A stretch of 64,000 bases of DNA from Sutcliffiella horikoshii (GTDB taxonomy: Bacteria; Bacillota; Bacilli; Bacillales; Bacillaceae_I), in NCBI RefSeq assembly GCF_019931755.1, contig NZ_CP082918.1:290001-354000 (forward strand). The letters are read 5' to 3'. Position numbers and translations under genes: made by a program. Under the pieces are notes generated by a model. The model saw only the letters and a program-made list of their open reading frames with translations. It was not told the origin of the DNA and did no database searches. Below, piece after piece: positions 28,411 to 56,508 of this stretch. Numbering within the stretch: position 1 is the stretch's first letter; every line of letters starts with the position of its first letter.

Positions 28411-30057
<1,647 letters not shown>

Positions 30058-30146
30058 TCTGTCCTTCAAACTCTTGATTTAGAAGGATTTGATAGTAAGG
30101 TGAGAGTGAAATGCTAACATTTTGTTAACATAGAGGTAATTTAACG

Positions 30147-30192
30147 GAGGCTTCTCATAAGTTCAATGAACTTGTGGGAGGCTTCTTTTTAT
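30147..30192 (+). terminator. Terminator after groEL
   Basis: GGCTTCTCATAAGTTCA and TGAACTTGTGGGAGGC form a 16-17 bp stem with G-U pairs, followed by TTCTTTTTATTT. Confidence 0.85.
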
Positions 30193-30221: not shown

Positions 30222-30265
30222 GAAGCAATTGCCCTGTTTTGTCTAGTGGTTAGGATAGTTGCTTC
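30222..30265 (+). other. Stem-loop at the island edge
   Basis: GAAGCAATTGCCCT pairs with AGGATAGTTGCTTC around a 16-base loop containing TCTAGTGGTT. There is no T run, so it is not a standard terminator. The rest of 30266-30418 is AT-rich leader before the first island gene, and I see nothing else in it. Confidence 0.5.
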
Positions 30266-30418
30266 TTGATCTAACATAAACTGAATTTTGTCAAATTATT
30301 ATATTTACATTTTGACGAAAAAACATAGGTATTGTAAAAAAATTCAAAATTTGAAGTAATAGTTTTAAGCTGTTAAAGAAAGTACATAAAACTCATTAAA
30401 TTAGGAAGGGGATTTTAA

Positions 30419-30601
30419 ATGACTATTGATTGGACAACCGTTATTACCCACCTATTTACACTTATACTCGGAGCAACAGGGGGTTATGTTTTTAAGTCAA
30501 TAAGGATAACTCGAAAAAACATTAATAAAACAAAAGGAAAAAATAGTCCTATTCTTAATAACAAAGGTGATGTAAAGGGTCATTTCGGTGATGGAAGATG
30601 A
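30419..30601 (+). CDS. Small membrane protein of the ABC-3C-like island
   Basis: 60 aa with one N-terminal membrane segment (about residues 8-25), a basic stretch R-K-N-I-N-K-T-K, then K-G-K-N-S-P-I-L-N-N-K-G-D-V (38-51). The same kind of motif opens the next protein. GGAAGGGG precedes the ATG, and the stop overlaps the next start (ATGA). It is the first gene of a six-gene AT-rich operon. The function is unknown; a membrane anchor or sensor for the system is an inference. Confidence 0.7.
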   Translation: MTIDWTTVITHLFTLILGATGGYVFKSIRITRKNINKTKGKNSPILNNKGDVKGHFGDGR

Positions 30602-31170
30602 CAGGAAGTAAAAATACTACAAAAGGTGATAATAGTCCAGTTTATAACAATAATGGTAATGTATACAACTCAAACGTTATACATATGAGAAGTGACTTTA
30701 TTAATCCCTATAACCTTAAAATGGTAATAAACTTTCTGGAATTAGAGCTTGAAAATGATATAGAGCCTAATCCAGGTGTTGAGGATGATGTTGGATTAAA
30801 TAGGATAAACATTGTAGCCAAAAATACTATTAATAATTTAGAAGAAGAAGGATCTAATGATTACAACAAAGTCATAATTGAAAGCAGTATTTATTTTAAA
30901 ACTATTAAAGATATACTTGCTGACCCTCGTAATAAAAAATTAAAGAAATCATACAATAATATAAAGAAGACCATCAATAGAAAAATCCCAGAAATTAAAA
31001 GAGAAAAGGAATATTTTTGCGAAGTAATTAATGATATTATTGATAGATTTTTAAACTCAAATGATATAGAGATCCTAGAGAATGAGGAAATGGTTAGTGT
31101 TGTAATACATTTTATGTATTATATATGTCACATTGGAGAGAACGGTGATACCAATGCTGAAACCGGATAA
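30598..31170 (+). CDS. Unknown protein, component of the ABC-3C-like island
   Basis: 190 aa, soluble and charged. The start has K-G-D-N-S-P-V-Y-N-N-N-G-N-V (residues 9-22), closely matching the end of the preceding membrane protein. The rest is mostly helical (E-L-E-L-E-N-D-I-E-P, R-K-I-P-E-I-K-R-E-K-E). I do not recognise a family. It overlaps the genes on both sides (4 bases upstream, 17 downstream), so its product probably belongs to the same complex. Confidence 0.7.
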   Translation: MTGSKNTTKGDNSPVYNNNGNVYNSNVIHMRSDFINPYNLKMVINFLELELENDIEPNPGVEDDVGLNRINIVAKNTINNLEEEGSNDYNKVIIESSIYFKTIKDILADPRNKKLKKSYNNIKKTINRKIPEIKREKEYFCEVINDIIDRFLNSNDIEILENEEMVSVVIHFMYYICHIGENGDTNAETG

Positions 31171-31393
31171 ATTTACAGAGTTAAATAGAAGTTTAATTTA
31201 TGTAGTTGCAATATTAATAAAGCTATTCAAAGAAAATGATTACAAGTGTAGCTACGGAAAGCTTTATAATGAATTGGAAAAACAAATTGGTGATGATGCG
31301 TTATATTTCTTTTTACCGGCAATTGATTTTTTATTTTTACTTGGTAAAGTTGACTACGATATCGATTCTGACTTCTTGGAGATGGAAATATGA
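31154..31393 (+). CDS. Probable ABC-3C middle component
   Basis: 79 aa from the ATG at 31154, preceded by GGTGA; an earlier in-frame ATG at 31133 lies further inside the previous gene. It starts M-L-K-P-D-K-F-T-E-L-N-R-S-L-I-Y-V-V and looks like a small winged-helix-type protein. Small proteins encoded immediately upstream of DUF2326-type ABC ATPases are the middle components of ABC-3C systems; this call rests on size, start pattern and position. Its stop overlaps the ATPase start (ATGA). Confidence 0.65.
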   Translation: MLKPDKFTELNRSLIYVVAILIKLFKENDYKCSYGKLYNELEKQIGDDALYFFLPAIDFLFLLGKVDYDIDSDFLEMEI

Positions 31394-33156
31394 AATTATC
31401 AAGGTTGTATAGCGATGATTCAAGGTTTAAAGATATAGAATTTAAAAATGGATTGAATATCATATTTGGTTATGTTCATGATAAAAATGTTAATGATCCC
31501 CACAATCTTGGGAAAAGTGCTCTTGTACAGCTGATAGATTTCATGCTGCTTAAGGAAGTGAAAAAAGGAAACTATTTTTACAACAAGAAAAAGGTTTTTA
31601 AGAATCATACATTTTATCTTGAATTAAAACTAAATAAAGGTGACTATTTAACAATTAGAAGATCTTTTAGTAACGTAACAAGAGTAGATATCAAAATAAT
31701 CAATTATTCTACAAAACTGTTGGATTGTGCAGAATGGGATTATACAAATTTAGTTCTAAATACTACGAGTGAAAATGTGATTCCGGCTACAGCAATTTTA
31801 AATGAAAAGTTGAACTTTGATATATTAGGAGATTATGATTATCGTAAGCTAGTAGGTTATTTTATTAGAACTCAAAACGACTATAGTGATGTTTTCCAAT
31901 TAAAGAAGTTCTCAAGCTCTACAGATCAAGTATGGAAACCTTTTGTATATGAATTATTAGGGTTTGATAGTATTCTTCTTTTTAAAAAATATGAACTAAA
32001 TAGTGAAATTGATGCTTTAAAAACAAAAATAAAAAATATGGAAGACTATTATAGTGCTTCAGATATAGATAGAATTAACGGCCAAATTGATATTCTGAAT
32101 AGAGAAAAAGAAATATTGGAACAGGATCTTGACTCCTTTAACTTCTATTTAAATGAAAAACAAATTAGTAAAGTATTAATTAATGAGATTGAAAACAAAT
32201 CGATTTCCTTACAAAACAAAGCATATAATTTACGGGCTGACATTGACCTTATTGAAAATTCTTTAGCGACGAAAGAGTTTCTTGACTTTGACTACATAAA
32301 AGAGCTTTTTGAAGAAGTCGAAATTTACTTTAGTGATCAACTTGAAAAATCATATGAAGATTTAATTAGTTTTAACAAGTCTTTACTAGAAGATAGAAGG
32401 GTTCATTTATCAAAGCTTCTTATTGACAAACAAGCAGAGCTTAAAGTTGTCGATGAAATGCTAAAAGACTTAGGAAAACAACGGTCAGACATCTTAAATG
32501 TGTTACAAGATAGTGATGTTATAAATAAATACAAAAATTTGAGAGCAAATTTAATTGAAAAGGAAAAGAGCATTCAGAGTCTTGAGACCCAAAAAGATAT
32601 AATTTCACAAACAAGAACAGATATCAAAGAGTTAAATGAAAAAAAGAAGGAACTGGAAAAAATAAATCAAACAATAGATACGAAAATAGAAAGTGGAAAT
32701 CAGGTTCTAAATGATATAAGGTATCTATTTAAGACTTACTTTGAAGCTATAACAAGTAAGAATGGAATAATTGATATTTCAACTAATACAACTTCAAATG
32801 TCGAGTTTAATGCGGGTATTATAACAGATGGTGGAGCTTTGACCCATGAAGATGAAGGTTTTTCATATCGAAAAATGCTGTGTATGTGTTTTGATTTAGC
32901 TATATTAAGCTATTATTCTAATAAAAGTTTCTTTAAATTTTTATATCATGATGGACCTTTTGAGGCATTACATGAAAATCGCAAATGGTCTTATCTTGAA
33001 TTTATTGAAGAATATTGTAATGAAAATGATGTGCAGTATATCATAAATTTAATTGATTCAGATGTCTCTAAAGATAAATTAAATAGAAGAGATATTGTAT
33101 GTGAGCTTGAGCAAACTGAAGATGGATCAGGTGCGTTATTTGGTTTCAAGTATTAG
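31390..33156 (+). CDS. DUF2326-type ABC ATPase with coiled coil
   Basis: 588 aa. It begins M-K-L-S-R-L-Y-S-D-D-S-R-F-K-D-I-E-F and has a Walker A N-L-G-K-S-A at residues 39-44 after an insertion, as in DUF2326 proteins. Residues about 210-430 are a long coiled coil. The C-terminal DUF2326-like part contains Y-R-K-M-L-C-M-C-F-D-L-A-I-L and the Walker B-like F-L-Y-H-D-G-P-F-E-A. Such SMC-like ATPases are the core of ABC-three-component conflict systems. Very AT-rich compared with groEL, which suggests transfer. Confidence 0.85.
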   Translation: MKLSRLYSDDSRFKDIEFKNGLNIIFGYVHDKNVNDPHNLGKSALVQLIDFMLLKEVKKGNYFYNKKKVFKNHTFYLELKLNKGDYLTIRRSFSNVTRVDIKIINYSTKLLDCAEWDYTNLVLNTTSENVIPATAILNEKLNFDILGDYDYRKLVGYFIRTQNDYSDVFQLKKFSSSTDQVWKPFVYELLGFDSILLFKKYELNSEIDALKTKIKNMEDYYSASDIDRINGQIDILNREKEILEQDLDSFNFYLNEKQISKVLINEIENKSISLQNKAYNLRADIDLIENSLATKEFLDFDYIKELFEEVEIYFSDQLEKSYEDLISFNKSLLEDRRVHLSKLLIDKQAELKVVDEMLKDLGKQRSDILNVLQDSDVINKYKNLRANLIEKEKSIQSLETQKDIISQTRTDIKELNEKKKELEKINQTIDTKIESGNQVLNDIRYLFKTYFEAITSKNGIIDISTNTTSNVEFNAGIITDGGALTHEDEGFSYRKMLCMCFDLAILSYYSNKSFFKFLYHDGPFEALHENRKWSYLEFIEEYCNENDVQYIINLIDSDVSKDKLNRRDIVCELEQTEDGSGALFGFKY

Positions 33157-33184
33157 AAAGGTAAGGAATAAAGTAAAATGTATT

Positions 33185-34474
33185 ATGAAAGGATATAGTT
33201 CATTGATTAAATATATAACGAAATATAACCAAGATGATGTACCAACCTTATTTGGTCAGATAATTTTAGATATTGAGTTAATAGAAGACCCTCCGTTTTA
33301 CATAATAGTTACCGATGATAATCAAAGTTGCTTTTTAGGATATATAGAAGTGTTTGCAGAATTTATATCATGTAGAGTGGTTTCAAGAGTCTTTGAATTG
33401 AATCAAGTTTTAAAGAATCCAGATAATTATATCTTGGAACACGAAAAAGAAATTAAAGAAATTAGAGTAGGCGATTTTAAAAGTATTGAATTGAATATCA
33501 GGAGTTTAAAAGAGGCTCTCGAAGTCTCTAGTATTATAGTCTCAAATAAAAACAGTTTTTTATTTAGGGGCCAAGCAAATAAAGAATGGACGATTGAGAG
33601 TAGTTTATTTAGAAAAGGATACAATCAAAGTAAGGAACCGCAATTATATTCTGAGATTAGGCGTATAAATCATGATCAATTTAGTTCTAATGATTTTAAT
33701 CAACTAACCAGTGATATGCAACATTATGGGATTCCTACTAGGCTTGTGGATTGGACTAGCAATATTTTTAATGCAATCTATTTCGCCTGTGTAAGTGGTA
33801 TGGAAGATTTAAGTAAAGATGGAGCTGTTTTCTTAATGGATTGTCCGGAGATATTAAATGTGGATTCGGAAACTTATAAGGATATTCAATCTTTTTTAGA
33901 ATACAGATATGGTTACAAAGATGATGTAGAAGCAATATTCCCTATTCTTTCCAAAGTATATGAGTCCGATAAAAAGTATAAATTCATAGAAATTAGGCTT
34001 TCTAACGAGAGAATAAAACGCCAAAATGGTTACTTCTCCCTATGTTTTGAAGCTAGTGAAGATGAAGCCAACGGTTTTTTAAAGTATATGTTTAATGAAT
34101 ATCTAAAAAGAAATAATAGTAATGTTCCAGACCAACATCTAGATAAAGTTGTCGATCTAATAAGGATACCTCTTGATAATTCCATTAGAGATCCTATTTG
34201 TCACCGGGTTGAAGAGTATAATTCTATAGCTTCTGAGCATCCAATAGACTTGGAGGGGTTAAAGGAGGCTTTAGATAGATTCAGTAGTATTAAACCTTTT
34301 ACTCATATAATGAATGATATTCAAAAGCATGATCAGCATATAAAAATAATTATTCCTTCTACATATAAGAAAGATATTACTATTGAGTTAGATAAAGTTG
34401 GGATTAATAGTAGTACCATATATCCAGATCTAGAAGGTATGACTAAGTATATCAAGGAAAAGTATTCTAATTAA
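33185..34474 (+). CDS. FRG-domain protein
   Basis: 429 aa from the ATG at 33185; upstream in-frame ATGs lie inside the ATPase gene. The FRG domain (roughly residues 110-260) shows F-L-F-R-G-Q-A-N-K-E-W, S-S-L-F-R-K-G and M-Q-H-Y-G-I-P-T-R-L-V-D-W-T-S-N-I-F-N-A-I. FRG proteins are common in defence islands, but their reaction is not established to my knowledge. It follows the ATPase by 28 bp, so it may be the effector. The weak ribosome site AAGGTAAGG is far from the start. Confidence 0.82.
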   Translation: MKGYSSLIKYITKYNQDDVPTLFGQIILDIELIEDPPFYIIVTDDNQSCFLGYIEVFAEFISCRVVSRVFELNQVLKNPDNYILEHEKEIKEIRVGDFKSIELNIRSLKEALEVSSIIVSNKNSFLFRGQANKEWTIESSLFRKGYNQSKEPQLYSEIRRINHDQFSSNDFNQLTSDMQHYGIPTRLVDWTSNIFNAIYFACVSGMEDLSKDGAVFLMDCPEILNVDSETYKDIQSFLEYRYGYKDDVEAIFPILSKVYESDKKYKFIEIRLSNERIKRQNGYFSLCFEASEDEANGFLKYMFNEYLKRNNSNVPDQHLDKVVDLIRIPLDNSIRDPICHRVEEYNSIASEHPIDLEGLKEALDRFSSIKPFTHIMNDIQKHDQHIKIIIPSTYKKDITIELDKVGINSSTIYPDLEGMTKYIKEKYSN

Positions 34475-34489
34475 GGTGGAGGAATTAGA

Positions 34490-35401
34490 ATGGAATACAA
34501 AGAAGCTCGATTAAGAAATCTGAAAATAAAATTATATAAAGTATCACTTTCTAAAGGTAAGGTATTAGAACACTCTCATAGTATAGAAGCTATTAATAAA
34601 AAATTATTTTTCAAAAAATCTGATATAAAAGACCATATTGAATCTTTTTTTAACTCTAGTAATGAAAAATACTTAATAAAACCAGAAATAAAAAAAGAGT
34701 TTGATAATTATTTTGAGAAGTATGATCAATATTCATCAGAACAAGAAGAACTTAAGATGATATTAAAAACTAATTATGAATATATAAGAGACATTTATAT
34801 AAATTTAAAACCAACTGAAGAGGCCAATGAAAAAATTCAGAAAACAAAAGAAATAGCTGCTAAGTTGCATTGGGTATATTTACCTATATATCCTGAGCAA
34901 ACCATAATAAATTCAGGGATTATTCCCGAAGAAAATACTGAAGAATATTATGAGCACTTTCATACTATTGAAGATTTGTACAGAGTAATATATGAAAATG
35001 CTGAAATCGAATGGAATAGTATAGAAGGGGATATTAACTTGAATTCCCCATTGAAAATGAGGGTTTTCTCTTCTAGATGGGGGCATTATGATACCTATTC
35101 TGTAAAAAGAACTATGAAAGGGTGGAATTTCAAGCATTTATCATATGATGTCGATTGTTCCAAAGATGGAACAATAAATAGTACAAAGGAAGACGGACTT
35201 TATAATATATTAGCCCATGATTCAATTCAATATCCTTATGATGGGGTTAGGTATGCACTAAGAACTTTGTGGAAAATTGCGGACTCTACTAGCATGTCTT
35301 CTAAGGAATTAGAAATTAAGCTACAAGATATAGCAGATTGGATTAATGCTGTAGAGAAAGCAACAAAAAGTAATCAGCCTAATTGGGTAGGATATTATTA
35401 A
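34490..35401 (+). CDS. Unknown protein, last gene of the island operon
   Basis: 303 aa, soluble, lysine- and glutamate-rich in the first half. The C-terminal ~120 residues look like a compact domain: S-S-R-W-G-H-Y-D-T-Y-S-V, G-W-N-F-K-H-L, H-D-S-I-Q-Y-P-Y-D-G-V-R-Y-A-L and L-W-K-I-A. I do not recognise the family and give no function. It has a good AAGGTGGAGG ribosome site and follows the FRG gene by 15 bp, so it is probably co-transcribed. Confidence 0.7.
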   Translation: MEYKEARLRNLKIKLYKVSLSKGKVLEHSHSIEAINKKLFFKKSDIKDHIESFFNSSNEKYLIKPEIKKEFDNYFEKYDQYSSEQEELKMILKTNYEYIRDIYINLKPTEEANEKIQKTKEIAAKLHWVYLPIYPEQTIINSGIIPEENTEEYYEHFHTIEDLYRVIYENAEIEWNSIEGDINLNSPLKMRVFSSRWGHYDTYSVKRTMKGWNFKHLSYDVDCSKDGTINSTKEDGLYNILAHDSIQYPYDGVRYALRTLWKIADSTSMSSKELEIKLQDIADWINAVEKATKSNQPNWVGYY

Positions 35402-35507
35402 AGTCACTCATGAAAAAATGCTAACATCTTGATAACGTCATCCCATAAAAAGCAGGTGCTAAACCCCTTAATAGTAAAGGTTTTTTAGTGTGAAAATGTA
35501 AATAGGA

Positions 35508-35551
35508 AGAGGCTTTCATTAGTTGACTAAACAATAGAAAGCCTCTTTGTT
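35508..35551 (+). terminator. Terminator after the ABC-3C-like operon
   Basis: AGAGGCTTTC and GAAAGCCTCT form a 10-bp perfect stem around a 19-base loop, followed by TTGTT. Confidence 0.75.
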
Positions 35552-36790: not shown

Positions 36791-36892
36791 TTTGGGATTA
36801 GGGTTTTGGAGTAAGGAATTAATCTCCGCTACTTTTTAAAGGCGAAATTTTATATAATTACTTGAAAAAGTACATTGAAGTAAGGTGATAAA

Positions 36893-37600
36893 ATGATACA
36901 TACATATTCAGGAGAAACCATCCATTTTGAGATAAAATACAAAAATCGCAAATCCATTGCCATTCATATGGACGTCTATGGAAATGTGGAAGTCCAGGCT
37001 CCTAAAGGTACACAGGATGAAAAAGTGATTCAATTGCTGGAGGAAAAGTGGGAACTGATTCAAGAAAAATCAAAAAAGATGAAGGACAGGCTGCTTGGGC
37101 AGCAGGAGAAGGAATACAGTCAGGAGGAGAGGGTTCTTTATTTAGGAAACACCTATCCTGTAAAGGTTTATCAAGATACTACTATTGAACAAGATTATGT
37201 CGTGTTTGATGAGAAACATATAAATGTATATGTGAAACAGGTGGAGGACGGAAGGATAAAACAAGCTTTAAAGAGATTTTATTACCAGCAATGCAAAGCT
37301 ATAGTGGAGAAGAGTGTAAGATCCTATCAAAGTAACTTTAAAGTAAAACCACGGTCTATCCGTATATCTGATAGTAAGACTACATGGGGAACCTGTGATT
37401 CCCAATTACAGTTAACTTTCAATTGGAAGTTGGCCATGGCTCCAATGAAAGTAATCGATTATGTAGTAGTACACGAAATGTGCCATATGATTCATCTTAA
37501 TCACGACCGCTCCTTCTGGCGGCTTGTAGGAAAAATATCGCCTGATTATAAAGAACAGGAAAATTGGTTGGCGCTGTCAAGTTGGAAGATGACTATTTAG
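36893..37600 (+). CDS. YgjP-type (DUF45) metal-dependent hydrolase, copy 1
   Basis: 235 aa. The zinc motif H-E-M-C-H is at residues 194-198, with H-L-N-H at 201-204, preceded by the family block T-T-W-G-T-C-D and L-T-F-N-W-K-L near 163-179. YgjP proteins are predicted M48/SprT-related metallopeptidases of unknown substrate. TATAAT lies about 40 bases upstream of the start, behind AAGGTG. A second copy at 41836 differs at nine residues. Confidence 0.85.
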   Translation: MIHTYSGETIHFEIKYKNRKSIAIHMDVYGNVEVQAPKGTQDEKVIQLLEEKWELIQEKSKKMKDRLLGQQEKEYSQEERVLYLGNTYPVKVYQDTTIEQDYVVFDEKHINVYVKQVEDGRIKQALKRFYYQQCKAIVEKSVRSYQSNFKVKPRSIRISDSKTTWGTCDSQLQLTFNWKLAMAPMKVIDYVVVHEMCHMIHLNHDRSFWRLVGKISPDYKEQENWLALSSWKMTI

Positions 37601-37656
37601 GCAGGAGAGGCTTAGGGAAGGAGGACAGGTTTCATGGATCCAACAAAAATTCAAAA

Positions 37657-37878: not shown

Positions 37879-40812
37879 GTGGAAGTTAAAGAAAAAATTG
37901 AAAAGTTTAGTCAGGAGTATGAGTTAAGTCAATTTACTTTTAGTAATTATTGTAGCACCGTTGCGAACATTTTAAAGTCATTATTAAAAAAGCATTCTCT
38001 CCAGTATCAAATTGTAGCAAGCCGTTTAAAAGATTTTTCATCAATAGAAAATAAATTGATAAAGGGCTCTTTACCTGAGGGTATAAGCACTATTTTTGAT
38101 ATAGATGATATAGCAGGTTGTCGTGTTATTTTTTATTTGGAAAGTGATATCCAGAAGTTTTCAAATTTGCTTTATGATGAGTTTATGGTTGAGAAGCATA
38201 ACTTGAGATATTCAGAGGATGGGTATAACGCTTTACACTTAGTAGTAAAGCTTAATAAAAATAGGTTAGAATTGATGGAATATGCGGAGTTTAATGAATT
38301 AAAGTGTGAAATACAATTGACAACAGTTCTTTTTCACGCTTGGTCGGAAATGTCACATAATATTATATATAAGCTTCCCGATGGACTTTCAGAGTTTGAT
38401 GAACAATCTGTTAATGCTCTTAAAAAACAATTCGGAGAGGTCATGAAAAATCAAATTAAGCCTGCTAGTTATACTTTTGAATTTATAAATGAGAGGTTTG
38501 AAAAACTAAAGCAAGGTAAACAGATTTTCGATGTAAATTTTTTGCAGAGCATCATGTTTGCATTATCACGTAATGAAGTTTATGAAAAAGTAAGTTTGCT
38601 TCATCAATTTATAATCGAATTTGGTGATAAGACGCCTGATGGTTTTAACTTAACAGAATTTATTCCTAAAATTATTCAAAAATCTAGAGAGCTTGAAACA
38701 ACTGATGTTGAAACTGCATTAGGAAGCATGTATGGATTTGAACATTATCATGTTGTTGAGAAATGTCTAGATATATTAAATCAAATTAGATATCTCTATT
38801 TAGAAGACACTTTAGATATACTTTTGATATTATCTATCGATGATGGACCAAAAATTAGGGAAAAAGCCATTCAGGTTCTTATTAATCTATGTAAGTATAA
38901 TTTAAAAGTTATTGATAAAGTTGGTTACTTTCCTCAAATGCAAATGGTATCCAAAATAAAAAAAGAGTTAGCTATAGCCATTGATTTTAATAAGTGGGTT
39001 GTTTTAAAAACAATTTTTTCAAATCTATTAAAGCTAGAATTTGATGACGTTTCATTTACTGATTATAAGGAAATTAGTATTCGGACAGGAACCATAGGAT
39101 TAAATTCACATCTCCAAGAAATTAGAAAAGAAGTAATTGACCTATTGGAGTATATTTATCAAAATACTTTTGAAATTGAAATTAAGGTAGAGATAATAAA
39201 GATATTAATGGAAGTCACTAACTTACCTAGAAGAGTAGAGTATAATCAGCAAATCCACGAATTAGTAAGAGAAAATGCAAATGAAGTCATTAGCTGGCTA
39301 TTGGACAATTTTGCTGGGTTTCAACTTTTGGAAATTAAGGCTATTGATGAAAATTCTTTTAGATTAAAACAATTAATACCTGAGTCTGAAGAAATAAAAA
39401 GATTAATTACTTTAATAGAAATGGACATTGAATATGAAGTTTTCAAAACTTTGGTCGGTAGTGATTTATCATATAGTAGAGACCTTGGATGGCGAGAGGC
39501 TGAAGATTTAAGACGGGCTGGCATAATTAAGTATCAGAATGAGATCAATAGTGAAAACTTCCCTTCTTGGGAAAAGAGAATAGTATCAATTGCTACTTGC
39601 TGTACCGGTACTAACTTATGGGAATTTGGAAATTTCCAAACCTTTTTATTTGGAATAGGAAAATTAAAGCCGTCATTGGCCAAAAATGTGATTATCAATA
39701 ACGAAGAAAAGTTAGAGGTTTTCCTCCCTAACTTAATTGCAGGAATATTGTATTCTGATAAGGAAAATGTTGCTAAGGAATTTATAAAAGATTGGATAAC
39801 ACAAAATAAATATATAGAGCAATGTGCAGCAGTATTTAACTTAGTTGAAGAACATGATTTTGAATTGATGGAGCAAATCTTTCTTAAAGCTTCTAAAGAG
39901 ACAAATATAAAGGCATTATTTAATTTACTTCATGCAATTATACGAAATGTCGATTGTTATGAGCAATCAAGCATTTTATTTGTTGAAATTGTTAAAGAGC
40001 TTTCAAAACATGAACAATACAATTGGACTAGCTTGATTTGGTATGATGAAAACTCAATTTTACATTTTTTAAAAGAGGAAGACTTAGAAGTTATACTAGG
40101 TGAGTTAGAAAAGTATAATACCTTAGGAGTTCATGAAGAGGAGATATTAAAGCCTACTTGTATAAAAGAGCCAGAAAAGGTTATTTATTTTTTTGGAAGA
40201 CGTATTGAAAAAGAAATACAAATGCAAAATCAGGGTAAAAACAGATTAATAGATAAATACGATGCGGTCCCGCATAATTTTTATGAATTAGATAAATTTT
40301 TAATAGATAAATCAGAAATAATTTTGCCACAGATAATACAATGGTTTAATAAATCCGAATGGTTGTACCAATGGGAAGCTGCTCAGTTAATTAAGAATAT
40401 CTTCCCTAATTTTGAACAACCACTACAGGAGTTTCTTAATACCCTAATTTTCAATGGTGAAGCGAATGAGGCTAAAATTGTTCTAAGAGTTATAAAGGAA
40501 TACGAAGGTTCTCCTGTTACATATGAAGTATGCAAAAACTTAATAAGAACAAATGTGGGAAATAAGGAAATGATGCAAGAACTAATGAGTGCATTGACAC
40601 AAACAGGAGTTGTTTCAGGGGAGTATGGGTTTGTAGAGGCTTATAAACAAATTAAGAAAGAAGTTCGTAAATGGCAGAGAGGGGAAAAAAGTCAGGAAAT
40701 TAAAACATTTGTTGTAGAATTTATGAGATATATTAATCCATTGATACTTCACGAAATTCGAAGGGCAGATAAAAATATAGAGATGATGAAAAGACGATAT
40801 AATAGTCAATGA
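37879..40812 (+). CDS. RelA/SpoT-like nucleotidyltransferase fused to a long helical-repeat region
   Basis: 977 aa, GTG start behind GTGGGAG. Residues 1-180 carry a RelA/SpoT synthetase domain: R49-x-K51-x-x-S54 with Lys59, D-I-D-D-I-A-G-C-R at 74-82, G-Y-N-A-L-H at 115-120, E144-I-Q and H-A-W-S-E-M-S-H at 153-160. The residues expected for pyrophosphate transfer are present. The remaining ~790 residues are alpha-helical and look like HEAT/ARM repeats (for example I-R-E-K-A-I-Q-V-L-I-N-L near 330). No hydrolase domain. A role as alarmone-type toxin or phage-defence effector is inference. Strongly AT-rich. Confidence 0.75.
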   Translation: MEVKEKIEKFSQEYELSQFTFSNYCSTVANILKSLLKKHSLQYQIVASRLKDFSSIENKLIKGSLPEGISTIFDIDDIAGCRVIFYLESDIQKFSNLLYDEFMVEKHNLRYSEDGYNALHLVVKLNKNRLELMEYAEFNELKCEIQLTTVLFHAWSEMSHNIIYKLPDGLSEFDEQSVNALKKQFGEVMKNQIKPASYTFEFINERFEKLKQGKQIFDVNFLQSIMFALSRNEVYEKVSLLHQFIIEFGDKTPDGFNLTEFIPKIIQKSRELETTDVETALGSMYGFEHYHVVEKCLDILNQIRYLYLEDTLDILLILSIDDGPKIREKAIQVLINLCKYNLKVIDKVGYFPQMQMVSKIKKELAIAIDFNKWVVLKTIFSNLLKLEFDDVSFTDYKEISIRTGTIGLNSHLQEIRKEVIDLLEYIYQNTFEIEIKVEIIKILMEVTNLPRRVEYNQQIHELVRENANEVISWLLDNFAGFQLLEIKAIDENSFRLKQLIPESEEIKRLITLIEMDIEYEVFKTLVGSDLSYSRDLGWREAEDLRRAGIIKYQNEINSENFPSWEKRIVSIATCCTGTNLWEFGNFQTFLFGIGKLKPSLAKNVIINNEEKLEVFLPNLIAGILYSDKENVAKEFIKDWITQNKYIEQCAAVFNLVEEHDFELMEQIFLKASKETNIKALFNLLHAIIRNVDCYEQSSILFVEIVKELSKHEQYNWTSLIWYDENSILHFLKEEDLEVILGELEKYNTLGVHEEEILKPTCIKEPEKVIYFFGRRIEKEIQMQNQGKNRLIDKYDAVPHNFYELDKFLIDKSEIILPQIIQWFNKSEWLYQWEAAQLIKNIFPNFEQPLQEFLNTLIFNGEANEAKIVLRVIKEYEGSPVTYEVCKNLIRTNVGNKEMMQELMSALTQTGVVSGEYGFVEAYKQIKKEVRKWQRGEKSQEIKTFVVEFMRYINPLILHEIRRADKNIEMMKRRYNSQ

Positions 40813-40852: not shown

Positions 40853-40953
40853 TATATTGAGAAACTGATATTTTTCACACTAAATAAATAGAATTTGAGG
40901 AACTTTTAAGGTACACATTCCTTAAAATACGAAAAATTAGGAGGTTGGTGTGT

Positions 40954-41430
40954 TTGGAAAGTTTTGAGTTTTATATGATGCTAAATGCCCTAGGTTTCAT
41001 CTTTTTAGTTTTTGCAATTGGCATTGGTGTTAGCATTATTCAAGAAGAGAAAATAGAAAAAAAGGACAAACTTATTTTTGGTCTGTTTTCACTCTTTTTC
41101 CTATCAGTCATTATTTTTGCAATAAACACTGGGAATGTTGACCCTAATGCTCCTTTATCGAAAGAGATTTTTAATATTTTAGCAGCATCGTTAACTTGCT
41201 CTGGTTTATGGAACTTAAAAAACAAAGCTAAAGGAAATAATTCTACTTTAAAGAGTAGTTTCAAAATAGTTTCAACACTTATTTTGATTTGGACTATTGT
41301 AAGTGCTTTGTTTGGTTTCAACGCTCTTAGACACGCAAATACTTTGGCTTTATCAATTGCATCCATCGGATTTTTCTTCCTGCCGATATTTGTAAATCAA
41401 TATCTTGAAAAATACAAAAAAATGAACTAG
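40954..41430 (+). CDS. Multi-spanning membrane protein, unknown
   Basis: 158 aa from a TTG at 40954, 9 bases after AGGAGG; starts at 40945 (TTG) and 40948 (GTG) are too close to the ribosome site. Four hydrophobic segments (roughly residues 6-26, 38-56, 95-112 and 122-140). I do not recognise the family. It follows the RelA/SpoT-domain gene on the same strand, within the stretch between the two ygjP copies, and may be its partner. Confidence 0.65.
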   Translation: MESFEFYMMLNALGFIFLVFAIGIGVSIIQEEKIEKKDKLIFGLFSLFFLSVIIFAINTGNVDPNAPLSKEIFNILAASLTCSGLWNLKNKAKGNNSTLKSSFKIVSTLILIWTIVSALFGFNALRHANTLALSIASIGFFFLPIFVNQYLEKYKKMN

Positions 41431-41810: not shown

Positions 41811-41835
41811 GGGATTAGGGTTTTAAGGTGATAAA

Positions 41836-42543
41836 ATGATACATACATATTCAGGAGAAACCATCCATTTTGAGATAAAATACAAAAATCGCAAATGCAT
41901 TGCCATTCGTATGGACGTTTATGGAAATGTGGAAGTCCAGGCTCCTAAAGGTACAGAGGATGAAAGAGTGATTCAATTGCTTGAGGAAAGGTGGGAACTG
42001 ATTCAAGAAAAATCAAAGGAAATGAAGGACAGACTGCTTGGACAGCAGGAGAAGGAATACAGTCAGGAGGAGAGGATTCTTTATTTAGGAAACACCTATC
42101 CTGTAAAGGTTTATCAAGATACTACTATTGAACAAGATTATGTCGTGTTTGATGAGAAACATATAAATGTATACGTGAAACAGGTGGAGGACGGAAGGAT
42201 AAAACAAGCTTTAAAGAGATTTTATTACCAGCAATGCAAAGCTATAGTGGAGAAGAGTGTAAAATCCTATCAAAGTAACTTTAAAGTAAAACCACGGTCT
42301 ATCCGTATATCTGATAGTAAGACTACATGGGGAACCTGTGATTCCCAATTACAGTTAACTTTCAATTGGAAGTTGGCCATGGCTCCAATAAAAGTAATTG
42401 ATTATGTAGTAGTACACGAAATGTGCCATATGATTCATCTCAACCACGACCGATCCTTCTGGCGACTTGTAGGAAAAATATCACCTGATTATAAAGAGCA
42501 GGAAAATTGGTTGGCGCTGTCCAGTTGGAAGATGACTATTTAG
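41836..42543 (+). CDS. YgjP-type (DUF45) metal-dependent hydrolase, copy 2
   Basis: 235 aa, nine substitutions from the copy at 36893, mostly in the first 85 residues; the zinc motif H-E-M-C-H (194-198) is intact. The upstream match to copy 1 breaks: 75-odd bases present before copy 1, including its TATAAT, are absent here, while AAGGTGATAAAATG is kept. It may be poorly transcribed unless read from an upstream promoter. Confidence 0.85.
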   Translation: MIHTYSGETIHFEIKYKNRKCIAIRMDVYGNVEVQAPKGTEDERVIQLLEERWELIQEKSKEMKDRLLGQQEKEYSQEERILYLGNTYPVKVYQDTTIEQDYVVFDEKHINVYVKQVEDGRIKQALKRFYYQQCKAIVEKSVKSYQSNFKVKPRSIRISDSKTTWGTCDSQLQLTFNWKLAMAPIKVIDYVVVHEMCHMIHLNHDRSFWRLVGKISPDYKEQENWLALSSWKMTI

Positions 42544-42576
42544 GCAGGAGAGGCTTAGTAAAGGGGAATAGACCTA

Positions 42577-42780
42577 ATGCATCCAACAGAGATAATGGCA
42601 CTTGGTTATTATGGGGAGGCTTTATCAATGTGTCAAAGAAGAGATTTATCCGCTGATTACGCTCGAATGAATATGGAAATTGCTTTAATCGCTGAAGATG
42701 GTATGAATCTATTAATTGAAAACGGTTGGATGGAACAACCCCCTACTGCCACTGACCATGAAAACCTGACGAAGAATTAG
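42577..42780 (+). CDS. Short DUF3231-like fragment
   Basis: 67 aa. Y-A-R-M-N-M-E-I-A-L-I-A-E-D-G-M-N-L-L-I followed by E-N-G-W-M-E-Q-P-P resembles the C-terminal end of DUF3231/CotF-like ferritin-fold proteins, which are several times longer, so this is probably a truncated remnant that gained a new start. The start A-T-G-C-A-T-C-C-A-A-C-A is shared with the broken frame at 37634 behind the first ygjP copy. A GGGG-type ribosome site is present. Confidence 0.5.
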   Translation: MHPTEIMALGYYGEALSMCQRRDLSADYARMNMEIALIAEDGMNLLIENGWMEQPPTATDHENLTKN

Positions 42781-50830: not shown

Positions 50831-51924
<1,094 letters not shown>

Positions 51925-54083: not shown

Positions 54084-54110
54084 CGAGTATGAAACCTATA
54101 CTCGTTTTTT
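54084..54110 (+). terminator. Terminator after corA (first copy)
   Basis: CGAGTAT, 7-base loop, ATACTCG, TTTTTT. The same terminator recurs at 55276-55302 in the second unit. Between it and the collagen-like gene (54111-54406) I see no credible gene. Confidence 0.85.
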
Positions 54111-54406
54111 GTTTTGAGAACTAAATAAAAAACAGCATAGTTAATCCAATGAGAAAGAAATCAGTAGCGCGGACTATTGGGGAGATGATTGGATATGGAA
54201 AGTGGTTAAGCCATTATAGAAGTAAGCCGACCTTGAAAATTTTATCCGAAGACGAACCCACCTGGCTAAATATTTCGAAAGTAGGTAGCCCATGCTCCGC
54301 TCAAACGGAAATTAGGTACTTTTATATTTACCTAACCGTTTAAAAAGTCCAAGCGTTTTTATTTTTATCGCATAACTTGAGGTAGTAGGACTGGAGGTGA
54401 TTAGCT

Positions 54407-54967
54407 TTGAAGAGGAAAAAATACTCCGATTGTAGTTGTCATATATTCCCGGTTTTGAAATCAACAAAATATGACTGTCCTCTTGGAAGACGCGGTCCAA
54501 CAGGTCCACCAGGCCCACCAGGTCCACCAGGTCCACCAGGTCCACCAGGTCCAGCTGGAGGAATTGGTTTTTTTGGGTTTGACCAAACTGGAGAGGGTGC
54601 AGTGTTAACTCCTGAAGTTGAAACTACTGTGTTGACGGTGTCTGTAAATTCTGACGCTGACCAATCAGTAAAAATAGATTCGGTAGCAGCAGTAGATATT
54701 ATAGTAGGTTTGTCTACTACTTTTCAGTTCACAATAGAGTATTCTTTGTATAGGGATGATATCCTTTTGGCTACTATCGTAGAAAATGACGAAGGAGATA
54801 AACCAGGTGGGATTGTACGCTTATTTAGCAATATTCCTAATTTAACTTGGGTTGATACACCTGGTTCTGGTATGCACACTTATGAGATTCGATTAACTGT
54901 AAGAGGGTCTAACATATTAACAGCCACTACAAGTACTAGGTCTTTAAATGTCTTTGCATTAGATTAG
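54407..54967 (+). CDS. Collagen-like spore-surface type protein, copy 1
   Basis: 186 aa from a TTG, 8 bases after GGAGGT. An N-terminal part with Cys residues (C-S-C, C-P), then about eight Gly-X-Y triplets (residues 30-52; mostly G-P-P), then a ~130-residue beta-rich domain (F-G-F-D-Q-T-G-E-G-A, E-Y-S-L-Y-R-D-D, T-Y-E-I-R-L-T-V). The build recalls exosporium proteins such as BclA, but with a much shorter collagen stretch. The pro-rich run GGTCCACCA is repeated at the DNA level. Confidence 0.75.
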   Translation: MKRKKYSDCSCHIFPVLKSTKYDCPLGRRGPTGPPGPPGPPGPPGPPGPAGGIGFFGFDQTGEGAVLTPEVETTVLTVSVNSDADQSVKIDSVAAVDIIVGLSTTFQFTIEYSLYRDDILLATIVENDEGDKPGGIVRLFSNIPNLTWVDTPGSGMHTYEIRLTVRGSNILTATTSTRSLNVFALD

Positions 54968-55028
54968 AAATTAAGGCAACTCAGTAATCTCATTTATATT
55001 TATGTTGGGCGAGATAAGATTATTTGCT

Positions 55029-55102
55029 AGCGGTAGCAGGGGGACGGTCCTGTCACTTCCATCTAACTCCAAAAGAAGCATGGGAACCGCCCCCCCTGCT
55101 TT
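55029..55102 (+). repeat. REP-like hairpin element 4
   Basis: AGCAGGGGGACGGTCC on one side and GGGAACCGCCCCCCCTGCT on the other fold over a 35-base middle containing CACTTCCATC. Related in motif to elements at 36716, 37657 and 41733. Confidence 0.7.
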
Positions 55103-55253
55103 ATTGACGTTTATAGCGGGAATCTACGGGATGAACTTTCAAAACATGCCTGAGCTGACTTGGAGATACGGATACTTTGTGGCGCTTGGAGTCATGGCCG
55201 TCATGGGGATAAGCTTGTTTATTTGGTTTAAGTGGAAGGGTTGGTTTAAGTGA
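55103..55253 (+). pseudogene. corA 3' fragment, second copy
   Basis: Encodes only the last 49 residues of CorA (L-T-F-I-A-G-I-Y-G-M-N-F onwards) up to the stop, including the pore signature. No start signal of its own; a frame running in from the hairpin at 55002 has no ribosome site. A duplication fragment, not a gene. Confidence 0.9.
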
Positions 55254-55598
55254 GATACCTATATGTAGACTGAAGCGAGTATGAAACCTATACTCGTTTT
55301 TTGTTTTGAGAACTAAATAAAAAACAGCATAGTTAATCCAATGAGAAAGAAATCAGTAGCGCGGACTATTGGGGAGATGATTGGATATGGAAAGTGGTTA
55401 AGCCATTATAGAAGTAAGCCGACCTTGAAAATTTTATCCGAAGACGAACCCACCTGGCTAAATATTTCGAAAGTAGGTAGCCCATGCTCCGCTCAAACGG
55501 AAATTAGGTACTTTTATATTTACCTAACCGTTTAAAAAGTCCAAGCGTTTTTATTTTTATCGCATAACTTGAGGTAGTAGGACTGGAGGTGATTAGCT

Positions 55599-56159
55599 TT
55601 GAAGAGGAAAAAATACTCCGATTGTAGTTGTCATATATTCCCGGTTTTGAAATCAACAAAATATGACTGTCCTCTTGGAAGACGCGGTCCAACAGGTCCA
55701 CCAGGCCCACCAGGTCCACCAGGTCCACCAGGTCCACCAGGTCCAGCTGGAGGAATTGGTTTTTTTGGGTTTGACCAAACTGGAGAGGGTGCAGTGTTAA
55801 CTCCTGAAGTTGAAACTACTGTGTTGACGGTGTCTGTAAATTCTGACGCTGACCAATCAGTAAAAATAGATTCGGTAGCAGCAGTAGATATTATAGTAGG
55901 TTTGTCTACTACTTTTCAGTTCACAATAGAGTATTCTTTGTATAGGGATGATATCCTTTTGGCTACTATCGTAGAAAATGACGAAGGAGATAAACCAGGT
56001 GGGATTGTACGCTTATTTAGCAATATTCCTAATTTAACTTGGGTTGATACACCTGGTTCTGGTATGCACACTTATGAGATTCGATTAACTGTAAGAGGGT
56101 CTAACATATTAACAGCCACTACAAGTACTAGGTCTTTAAATGTCTTTGCATTAGATTAG
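55599..56159 (+). CDS. Collagen-like spore-surface type protein, copy 2
   Basis: 186 aa, identical in sequence to the protein at 54407-54967, with the same TTG start, ribosome site and upstream region. See that entry for domains. The identity shows that the duplication is very recent or that the copies are kept alike by recombination. Confidence 0.75.
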   Translation: MKRKKYSDCSCHIFPVLKSTKYDCPLGRRGPTGPPGPPGPPGPPGPPGPAGGIGFFGFDQTGEGAVLTPEVETTVLTVSVNSDADQSVKIDSVAAVDIIVGLSTTFQFTIEYSLYRDDILLATIVENDEGDKPGGIVRLFSNIPNLTWVDTPGSGMHTYEIRLTVRGSNILTATTSTRSLNVFALD

Positions 56160-56220
56160 AAATTAAGGCAACTCAGTAATCTCATTTATATTTATGTTGG
56201 GCGAGATAAGATTATTTGCT

Positions 56221-56294
56221 AGCGGTAGCAGGGGGACGGTCCTGTCACTTCCATCTAACTCCAAAAGAAGCATGGGAACCGCCCCCCCTGCTTT
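56221..56294 (+). repeat. REP-like hairpin element 5
   Basis: Exact copy of 55029-55102 in the second duplicated unit. Confidence 0.7.
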
Positions 56295-56445
56295 ATTGAC
56301 GTTTATAGCGGGAATCTACGGGATGAACTTTCAAAACATGCCTGAGCTGACTTGGAGATACGGATACTTTGTGGCGCTTGGAGTCATGGCCGTCATGGGG
56401 ATAAGCTTGTTTATTTGGTTTAAGTGGAAGGGTTGGTTTAAGTGA
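56295..56445 (+). pseudogene. corA 3' fragment, third copy
   Basis: Same 49 codons of the CorA C terminus as at 55103-55253. Identity ends just after the stop codon (GTGAGATA, then ACTAG instead of CCTAT), which marks the right edge of the duplicated unit. Confidence 0.9.
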
Positions 56446-56508
56446 GATAACTAGAAGTTTTGCGCAAATCTACTGAGGAGTGTCATTTTGCTTTCTTAAC
56501 AAAATGAT

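Follow-up and report, generated by a model that had tools for sequence, protein, structure and literature searches.

Behind groEL in a 64,000-nucleotide (nt) stretch of the Sutcliffiella horikoshii genome (hereafter the window; contig NZ_CP082918.1, positions 290,001 to 354,000), six open reading frames (ORFs), all on the + strand, form an island at 30419-35401. On the evidence of sequence comparisons and structural models, we lean towards the view that the first four genes are a mobile, ABC-three-component (ABC-3C)/Lamassu-like abortive-infection cassette that would use a separate membrane effector and would signal to it through a matched pair of short motifs, one at the tail of the effector and the other at the head of its partner. 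The point of novelty appears to be the effector as a separate small membrane protein, where ABC-3C effectors are normally fused to the C-terminal domain (CTD). The original prediction had placed six tightly packed AT-rich ORFs at this site and we indeed found them there, with a G+C content of 0.288 (30419-35401), whereas the window as a whole has 0.404 and groEL (28426-30057) has 0.449.

Gene 1 (30419..30601) encodes a 60-residue single-span membrane protein, the presumed effector, which has no family match in Pfam, PADLOC or NCBIfam and carries its motif near the C terminus (residues 36-52). It overlaps by 4 nt with gene 2 (30598..31170), whose 190-residue product has no fused effector domain; an N-terminal motif (residues 6-22) precedes the CTD12 domain of ABC-3C systems (PF20279, 63.3 bits against a cut-off of 25, residues 36-180). 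Gene 3 (31154..31393; 79 residues from its ATG, scanned against Pfam from the TTG at 31133) is a middle component that matches both MC6 (PF20293, 33.9 bits, cut-off 27.2) and MC8 (PF20295, 30.8 bits, cut-off 25). Gene 4 (31390..33156), the last of the cassette, encodes a 588-residue SMC/Rad50-like ATPase, and its anticipated placement in DUF2326 was confirmed by profile search (PF10088, 84.5 bits over a cut-off of 28.7). PADLOC assigned it to PDC-M68B (1.9e-47) and, more weakly, to LmuB (8e-12), and fold comparison of the predicted structure gave YydD as the nearest, followed by LmuB and Rad50. The ABC-3C core proposed earlier, a middle component plus a DUF2326 ATPase, is thus upheld by the Pfam matches and the predicted fold. 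Searches of the PDB by sequence with genes 2, 4 and 5 returned matches at chance level or none.

As in the ABC-3C/Lamassu systems (LmuABC, DdmABC), an SMC/Rad50-like ATPase, a small middle component and a CTD-bearing third component are encoded in one operon, and the ATPase resembles LmuB in its predicted fold and its PADLOC match. In a review, the third component of these systems is described as carrying an N-terminal, mostly enzymatic effector domain fused to the CTD (PMC10586767). However, no effector domain N-terminal to the CTD was found in the window, where only the motif-bearing head precedes CTD12. Because a separate, motif-matched membrane protein replaces the fused effector, we class the locus as an ABC-3C variant and not as a standard member. 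The likeness to YydD-YydB of B. subtilis (PDB 9a6c, an integrative model) concerns the ATPase only. The PADLOC entries matched by gene 4 (PDC-M68) and gene 5 (PDC-S15) carry no description, and the name PDC-M68 was not found in the open literature searched.

We compared CTD12 loci from the window, its relatives, plasmids and viral contigs. CTD12 matches were present in 34 of the 39 loci scanned, and also in L060 from an additional listing. Left out before the counts were L064, whose contig starts inside the gene, L052, with nothing upstream in its record, L061 and L062, which fell under the family cut-off, and L055, L079, L081, L082 and L084, which have no CTD12 match. Twenty loci encode long, fused CTD12 proteins, whose printed heads resemble restriction-endonuclease or HNH-type domains by eye, not by profile. 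Short CTD12 proteins without an effector domain are encoded by 14 loci (the window, L003, L006, L046, L047, L048, L053, L056, L057, L058, L060, L063, L085 and L086), among them an Alteromonas plasmid (L053) and a viral contig (L063), and in all 14 a small ORF with a hydrophobic span lies directly upstream. Among the hydrophobic upstream ORFs printed for the 20 long CTD12 loci, none with a matching motif was seen by eye. With the ATPase alignment A2 as query, 22 loci were recovered from viral contigs: 16 with fused CTD12, several of them near-identical (L072, L074, L075, L077), one short (L063), one cut by the contig end (L064) and four without a CTD12 match. Viral contigs searched with the CTD12 alignment A1 and a phage collection searched with the CTD12 protein of L048 yielded no match.

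The small proteins of the loci used in the motif tests all contain a hydrophobic stretch (13/13), which starts at residue 3-7 in 12 of them, with flanks that point to a tail on the inside; in the longer Alteromonas protein, the strongest span adjoins the tail. The span of gene 1 is borderline (hydropathy 1.46 over 19 residues), and its tail is predicted to lie inside because five K/R residues are found among the 12 residues after the span.

The tail of gene 1 and the head of gene 2 (NKTKGKNSPILNNKGDV and NTTKGDNSPVYNNNGNV) gave a local score of 62, compared with 24.4 +/- 4.8 for 2000 shuffled tails. The motif sharing, which had been recorded earlier without any inference drawn from it, is therefore real. 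It extends well beyond the window: in 13 of the 14 loci, the tail motif of the small protein resembles the head motif of the CTD12 protein encoded beside it (L056 was left out of the motif tests only), and all 13 pairs scored above 2000 shuffled tails, with z values from 4.8 to 11.3. Examples are the pairs KVNGNSNTVTGRDYN / EIDGTSNTAVGRDYN in G314 (L047), QTVFGRDNKTAGNDI / QAIVGRDNKSAGRDI in G174 (L048), QLAIGTNNRIAGRDIND / QLVFGNNNRVAHRDINE in L063 and NIAKAKNNSVSIINN / NSAEANNNSVAAVNN in Alteromonas. When tails and heads were permuted among nine representatives, a set that omits the near relatives L003, L006, L046 and L086, each tail scored its own head highest, with two ties, and the summed score of 482 was reached by none of 20,000 permutations (mean 279, sd 39). 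Across all 13 pairs, the own head was strictly best for seven tails and tied for three (L003, L048, L060). Since the motif type supplies much of this signal, we also permuted within types, and for the GRDIN-like sets the number of arrangements that did as well, with the true one counted in, was 4 of 720 and 2 of 120. As read from the sequences, the motif type changes together in both partner proteins. Within the head, T8, G10, S13, P14 and G20 are invariant over the 21 CTD12 sequences of alignment A1.

Such likeness could be a functionless relic of a recent DNA duplication, and in the window the two motifs begin just 89 nt apart and agree at 34 of 45 nt. However, among the 127 identical aligned residues of the 13 pairs, 66 are encoded by different codons, compared with 59.8 expected from independent draws from the codon use at the start of gene 2, and the head/tail match holds in lineages of other motif types. 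The codon comparison led us to reject a recent DNA duplication as the origin of the shared motif, and there is very little chance that the motif is such a relic. Because the codons differ as in independent draws, we conclude that the likeness is maintained at the level of the protein.

The remaining two genes of the island form a unit of their own. Gene 5 (33185..34474; 429 residues from its likely ATG, earlier in-frame starts overlapping gene 4, and scanned against Pfam from 33140) encodes an FRG-domain protein (PF08867, 70.4 bits, cut-off 25; PADLOC PDC-S15, 2.4e-41). The C-terminal third of its partner, gene 6 (34490..35401; 303 residues), matches the M1E1E6-like integron cassette protein family (PF21648, 36.1 bits, cut-off 27); a PDB search by sequence with gene 6 gave 3fy6 (E=3.1e-4). 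Close to what the original prediction envisaged, all six genes might constitute one ABC-3C system with FRG as its effector. The gap between gene 4 and the likely start of gene 5 is just 28 nt, and FRG, a member of the ART superfamily, is proposed as an NADase effector in PMC9503650. However, Alkalihalobacterium chitinilyticum (L003) has genes 1-4 (88, 88, 84 and 86% identical) but lacks genes 5-6, and its DNA homology with the window, which begins at 30312, ends at 33155 with the final bases of gene 4, at the stop codon of that gene. Halalkalibacter (L006) carries genes 1-3 and the on-contig part of gene 4 at 75-86% identity. The gene 5/6 pair, in turn, follows a small regulator on plasmid pE73 of Exiguobacterium alkaliphilum (L142; 32.5 and 37.5% identity). 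At ~73% identity it lies in G021 (L143, 6231-11614) behind the gene for a HerA-type ATPase, itself preceded by one for a DUF4297-type protein, and in G119 (L144, 676-6060) behind ORFs resembling those of G021; tblastn found no match to the ABC-3C proteins of the window in the stretches carrying the pair. These comparisons lead us to conclude that genes 1-4 and genes 5-6 are two separate units, to reject FRG as the ABC-3C effector and to regard a single six-gene system as largely refuted and improbable. Because the homology with L003 spans 30312-33155, the mobile unit consists of a leader of ~107 bp and four genes. The FRG/gene-6 pair, which follows an SMC-type ATPase in the window and a HerA-type one in G021, may be an effector add-on that can combine with various sensors.

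The island proved accessory and not part of a fixed core, as a close relative of the ATPase was found in only one of 16 genomes of the genus, namely its own. Among 61 relatives searched, two had such a gene, the own genome included, and the second is a fragment; this search detects close relatives only and missed the more distant DUF2326 ATPase of G012. Gene 2 had matches in five of 397 genomes of the order, the own included, three at 79-100% and two at 35-36% identity. Full-length ATPases 83-92% identical to that of the window occur in Oceanobacillus, Cytobacillus, Bacillus, Planococcus and others, and this identity across genera indicates that the cassette spread horizontally in recent time. 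In Heyndrickxia sporothermodurans (L004/L046), the homologous ATPase gene is split by inserted DNA, with pieces lying ~7 kb and 1.5 kb apart.

How could such a cassette work? We propose that an ATPase dimer together with the middle component and CTD12 would sense invader DNA, and that sensing would free or cluster the CTD12 head motifs. Through like-to-like contact, these heads could then capture the matching tails and draw the membrane proteins into clusters, whose spans would perturb the membrane and halt the infected cell, in a presumed abortive infection. In this reading, the FRG/gene-6 pair is a second module that stands behind the cassette independently of it, and modules of this kind collect at the groEL stop codon, which is an attachment site for integrases.

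We consider templated cross-beta (amyloid-type) assembly of the motifs the most probable contact and rank it above simple static docking. In bacterial amyloid signalling, as described in PMC7889193, PMC12261475 and PMC8086366, an NLR carries at its N end a motif that recurs at the C end of a small membrane-targeting Bell protein encoded next to it, and this motif is believed to transmit a cross-beta fold. The cassette shares with BASS 1-10 and the Bell-domain effectors a short motif at the N end of the sensor and the C end of a small membrane effector, and adjacent genes; like them, it comes with several families of motifs. In contrast to BASS, where the sensor is an NLR, the sensor side in the window is CTD12 plus an SMC-like ATPase, and the host is a Bacillales-type and not a filamentous bacterium. 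Because its sensor is not an NLR, the cassette is not itself a BASS/NLR signalosome; the likeness is one of working principle, and the cassette may work like one. The review among these sources raises the question of NLR-free signalling in bacteria. The term 'amyloid signaling' occurs in none of the 12 papers listed of the 69 found in the open literature on these themes. We tentatively suggest, at a confidence that stays short of even, that NLR-independent amyloid-type signalling exists in bacteria, in which an SMC/Rad50-like DNA sensor would template the motif of a membrane-attacking effector, with several motif types, insulated from one another, spread horizontally among unicellular bacteria.

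Other arrangements of the same parts have to be considered. The motif might be an ordinary beta-strand or coil tag that permanently anchors the CTD12 complex to the membrane, with no templating. All that is observed is a matched short motif, and the tails of the small proteins are predicted to be cytoplasmic, both of which such docking would accommodate. However, a static heterodimer does not require its two sides to resemble each other, as complementary sequences would suffice, and likeness maintained over three motif types suggests like-to-like stacking, so we regard permanent anchoring as credible but unlikely. Toxin-antitoxin logic, in which the membrane protein would be a constitutive toxin whose tail is masked by the CTD12 head until the ATPase senses an invader, would fit a gene 1 that is small, hydrophobic, first in the operon and overlapping with gene 2. 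Lamassu, as described in PMC10586767, activates its effector on sensing, which overlaps with the toxin-antitoxin view, and the data do not separate the two; we consider this logic decidedly unlikely.

Several observations weigh against motif-templated signalling to a membrane effector. In the comparison of all 13 pairs, the tails of L046, L006 and L085 score the head of a near relative above their own; because of these three and the three ties, the specificity of the motif is one between lineages and not within them. For the NSPI-like sets, the true arrangement was the best of 6 and of 24, tests with hardly any power. In L056 (reverse strand, 1220-1420) the ORF ends before the motif, and motif-like residues lie in another frame, which may reflect an error, decay or regulated reading. 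Residues 53-60 of gene 1, past the motif, are conserved too in close relatives. The window-type spans are weak (1.42-1.56 over 19 residues, compared with 1.80-3.26 in the others), and the AlphaFold model of CTD12 is poor (predicted local distance difference test score 52.7), its head being merely of low confidence. The pairing could equally be an inhibitory clamp.

The proposed cassette lies at a site that has received other cargo. In the window, the groEL stop codon and a post-groEL block of element type, with a hairpin and AAATGCTAACATTTTGTTAAC at 30109-30129, occupy 30055..30129 on the + strand, and this block is the likely left junction of an integrated element. A terminator-like hairpin follows in the interval between groEL and the cassette (30146..30186, +; a 19-pair stem and a T run, by pattern match), and then a conserved region 5' of the cassette, the presumed promoter (30312..30418, +), at whose first base the homology with L003 begins. 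Behind gene 6, a second copy of the 21-nt repeat (35416..35436, +) is identical to 30109-30129 at 19 of 21 positions, so that the island carries the repeat at both ends with two mismatches; neither an exact attachment (att) pair nor a second att core was found for it. The AAATGCTAACATTTTGTTAAC motif also occurs just behind groEL in six other genomes of the genus (positions 335-466 of their stretches, 1-4 mismatches).

Stretches downstream of groEL were taken from 15 congeners, one of them just 463 bases long. Among the 15 genomes with a usable stretch, the own included, 10 have a ygjP-like gene after groEL within the stretch, at distances from ~0.3 kb (G008) to ~10.8 kb. Of the ORFs of at least 80 residues between the two genes, the only ones shared by different genomes (40% identity) are an integrase-like family and two families next to ygjP. 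When 20 chosen proteins from 12 congeners were compared with Pfam, and ten of them also with PADLOC, defence-type matches were found at the groEL site in six of the 12: RT-Toprim in G001, a caspase in G003, HamB and an MkoC-like helicase in G006, an SMC-like Ppl match in G007, SngC with BrxC/D and TerB domains in G011, and in G012 (L030, 964-4413) another DUF2326 ATPase with a calcineurin-like phosphoesterase (metallophosphoesterase), given in PADLOC as an endonuclease effector. For G002, G009, G010 and G015, the proteins chosen proved to be a transposase, a glycosidase, a solute-binding protein or without a family. Integrase domains are present at the site in G013 and G014; in G007 merely a short ORF clusters with them. 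An exact repeat of the groEL stop region recurs at the far end in G013 (19 bp, 49.7 kb) and G014 (20 bp, 37.4 kb), and G007 has a 17-bp stop-region repeat around 5.8 kb; a 15-base repeat in G006 was not counted, as the stop codon lies outside it. Displaced groEL 3' ends lie downstream of the intact gene at ~3 kb in G003 (L032) and ~6 kb in G056 (L119), and in G056 an integrase gene stands directly behind intact groEL. In this genus, elements with a tyrosine integrase are thus bounded by the repeat, with one copy at the groEL stop and the other at their far end, and on these sequence features we conclude that integrases use the groEL stop codon as an attachment site in the genus, with defence-type cargo in several species.

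At the level of the order, we listed ORFs for 15 further groEL stretches and profiled proteins of five. In G174, from a different family of the order, groEL is followed directly by an ABC-3C cassette; Gabija genes lie ~5 kb behind groEL in G026, and integrases and type I restriction-modification genes are at the junction in G021. None of the proteins tried from L121 and L126 matched a PADLOC entry. Because most of the other order-level stretches carry ordinary-looking genes, an order-wide hot spot is only suggested. The earlier idea of the groEL junction as a shared insertion hot spot for defence systems thus stands within the genus and, through the cassette of G174, gains an instance outside it, while for the order it goes no further than this suggestion.

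Several other features of the window were observed. The ygjP gene is present twice (36881-37645 and 41824-42588, 95.6% identical over 765 nt), and the copies flank a second AT-rich module, which encodes a 977-residue protein with an N-terminal RelA/SpoT domain (37879-40812; PADLOC PDC-S33, 4.8e-17) and a small protein that appears to be a membrane protein (40945-41430). This module looks like another inserted defence candidate. Tandem genes for collagen-like proteins (54109-55261 and 55301-56453) are 99.9% identical over 1153 nt. One gene that resembles mnmA is read as two ORFs at 50834-51385 and 51475-51924, possibly through a frameshift or an assembly error.

With two short matched motifs, one span and a known type of DNA sensor, the cassette is a compact and testable candidate, for which natural lineages with different motif pairs are ready-made specificity controls. 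It suggests a route by which a DNA-sensing SMC-like complex might reach a membrane target without carrying the part that acts on that target on the same chain. The groEL stop codon offers a fixed address for finding further systems in the genus, and perhaps more widely in Bacillales.

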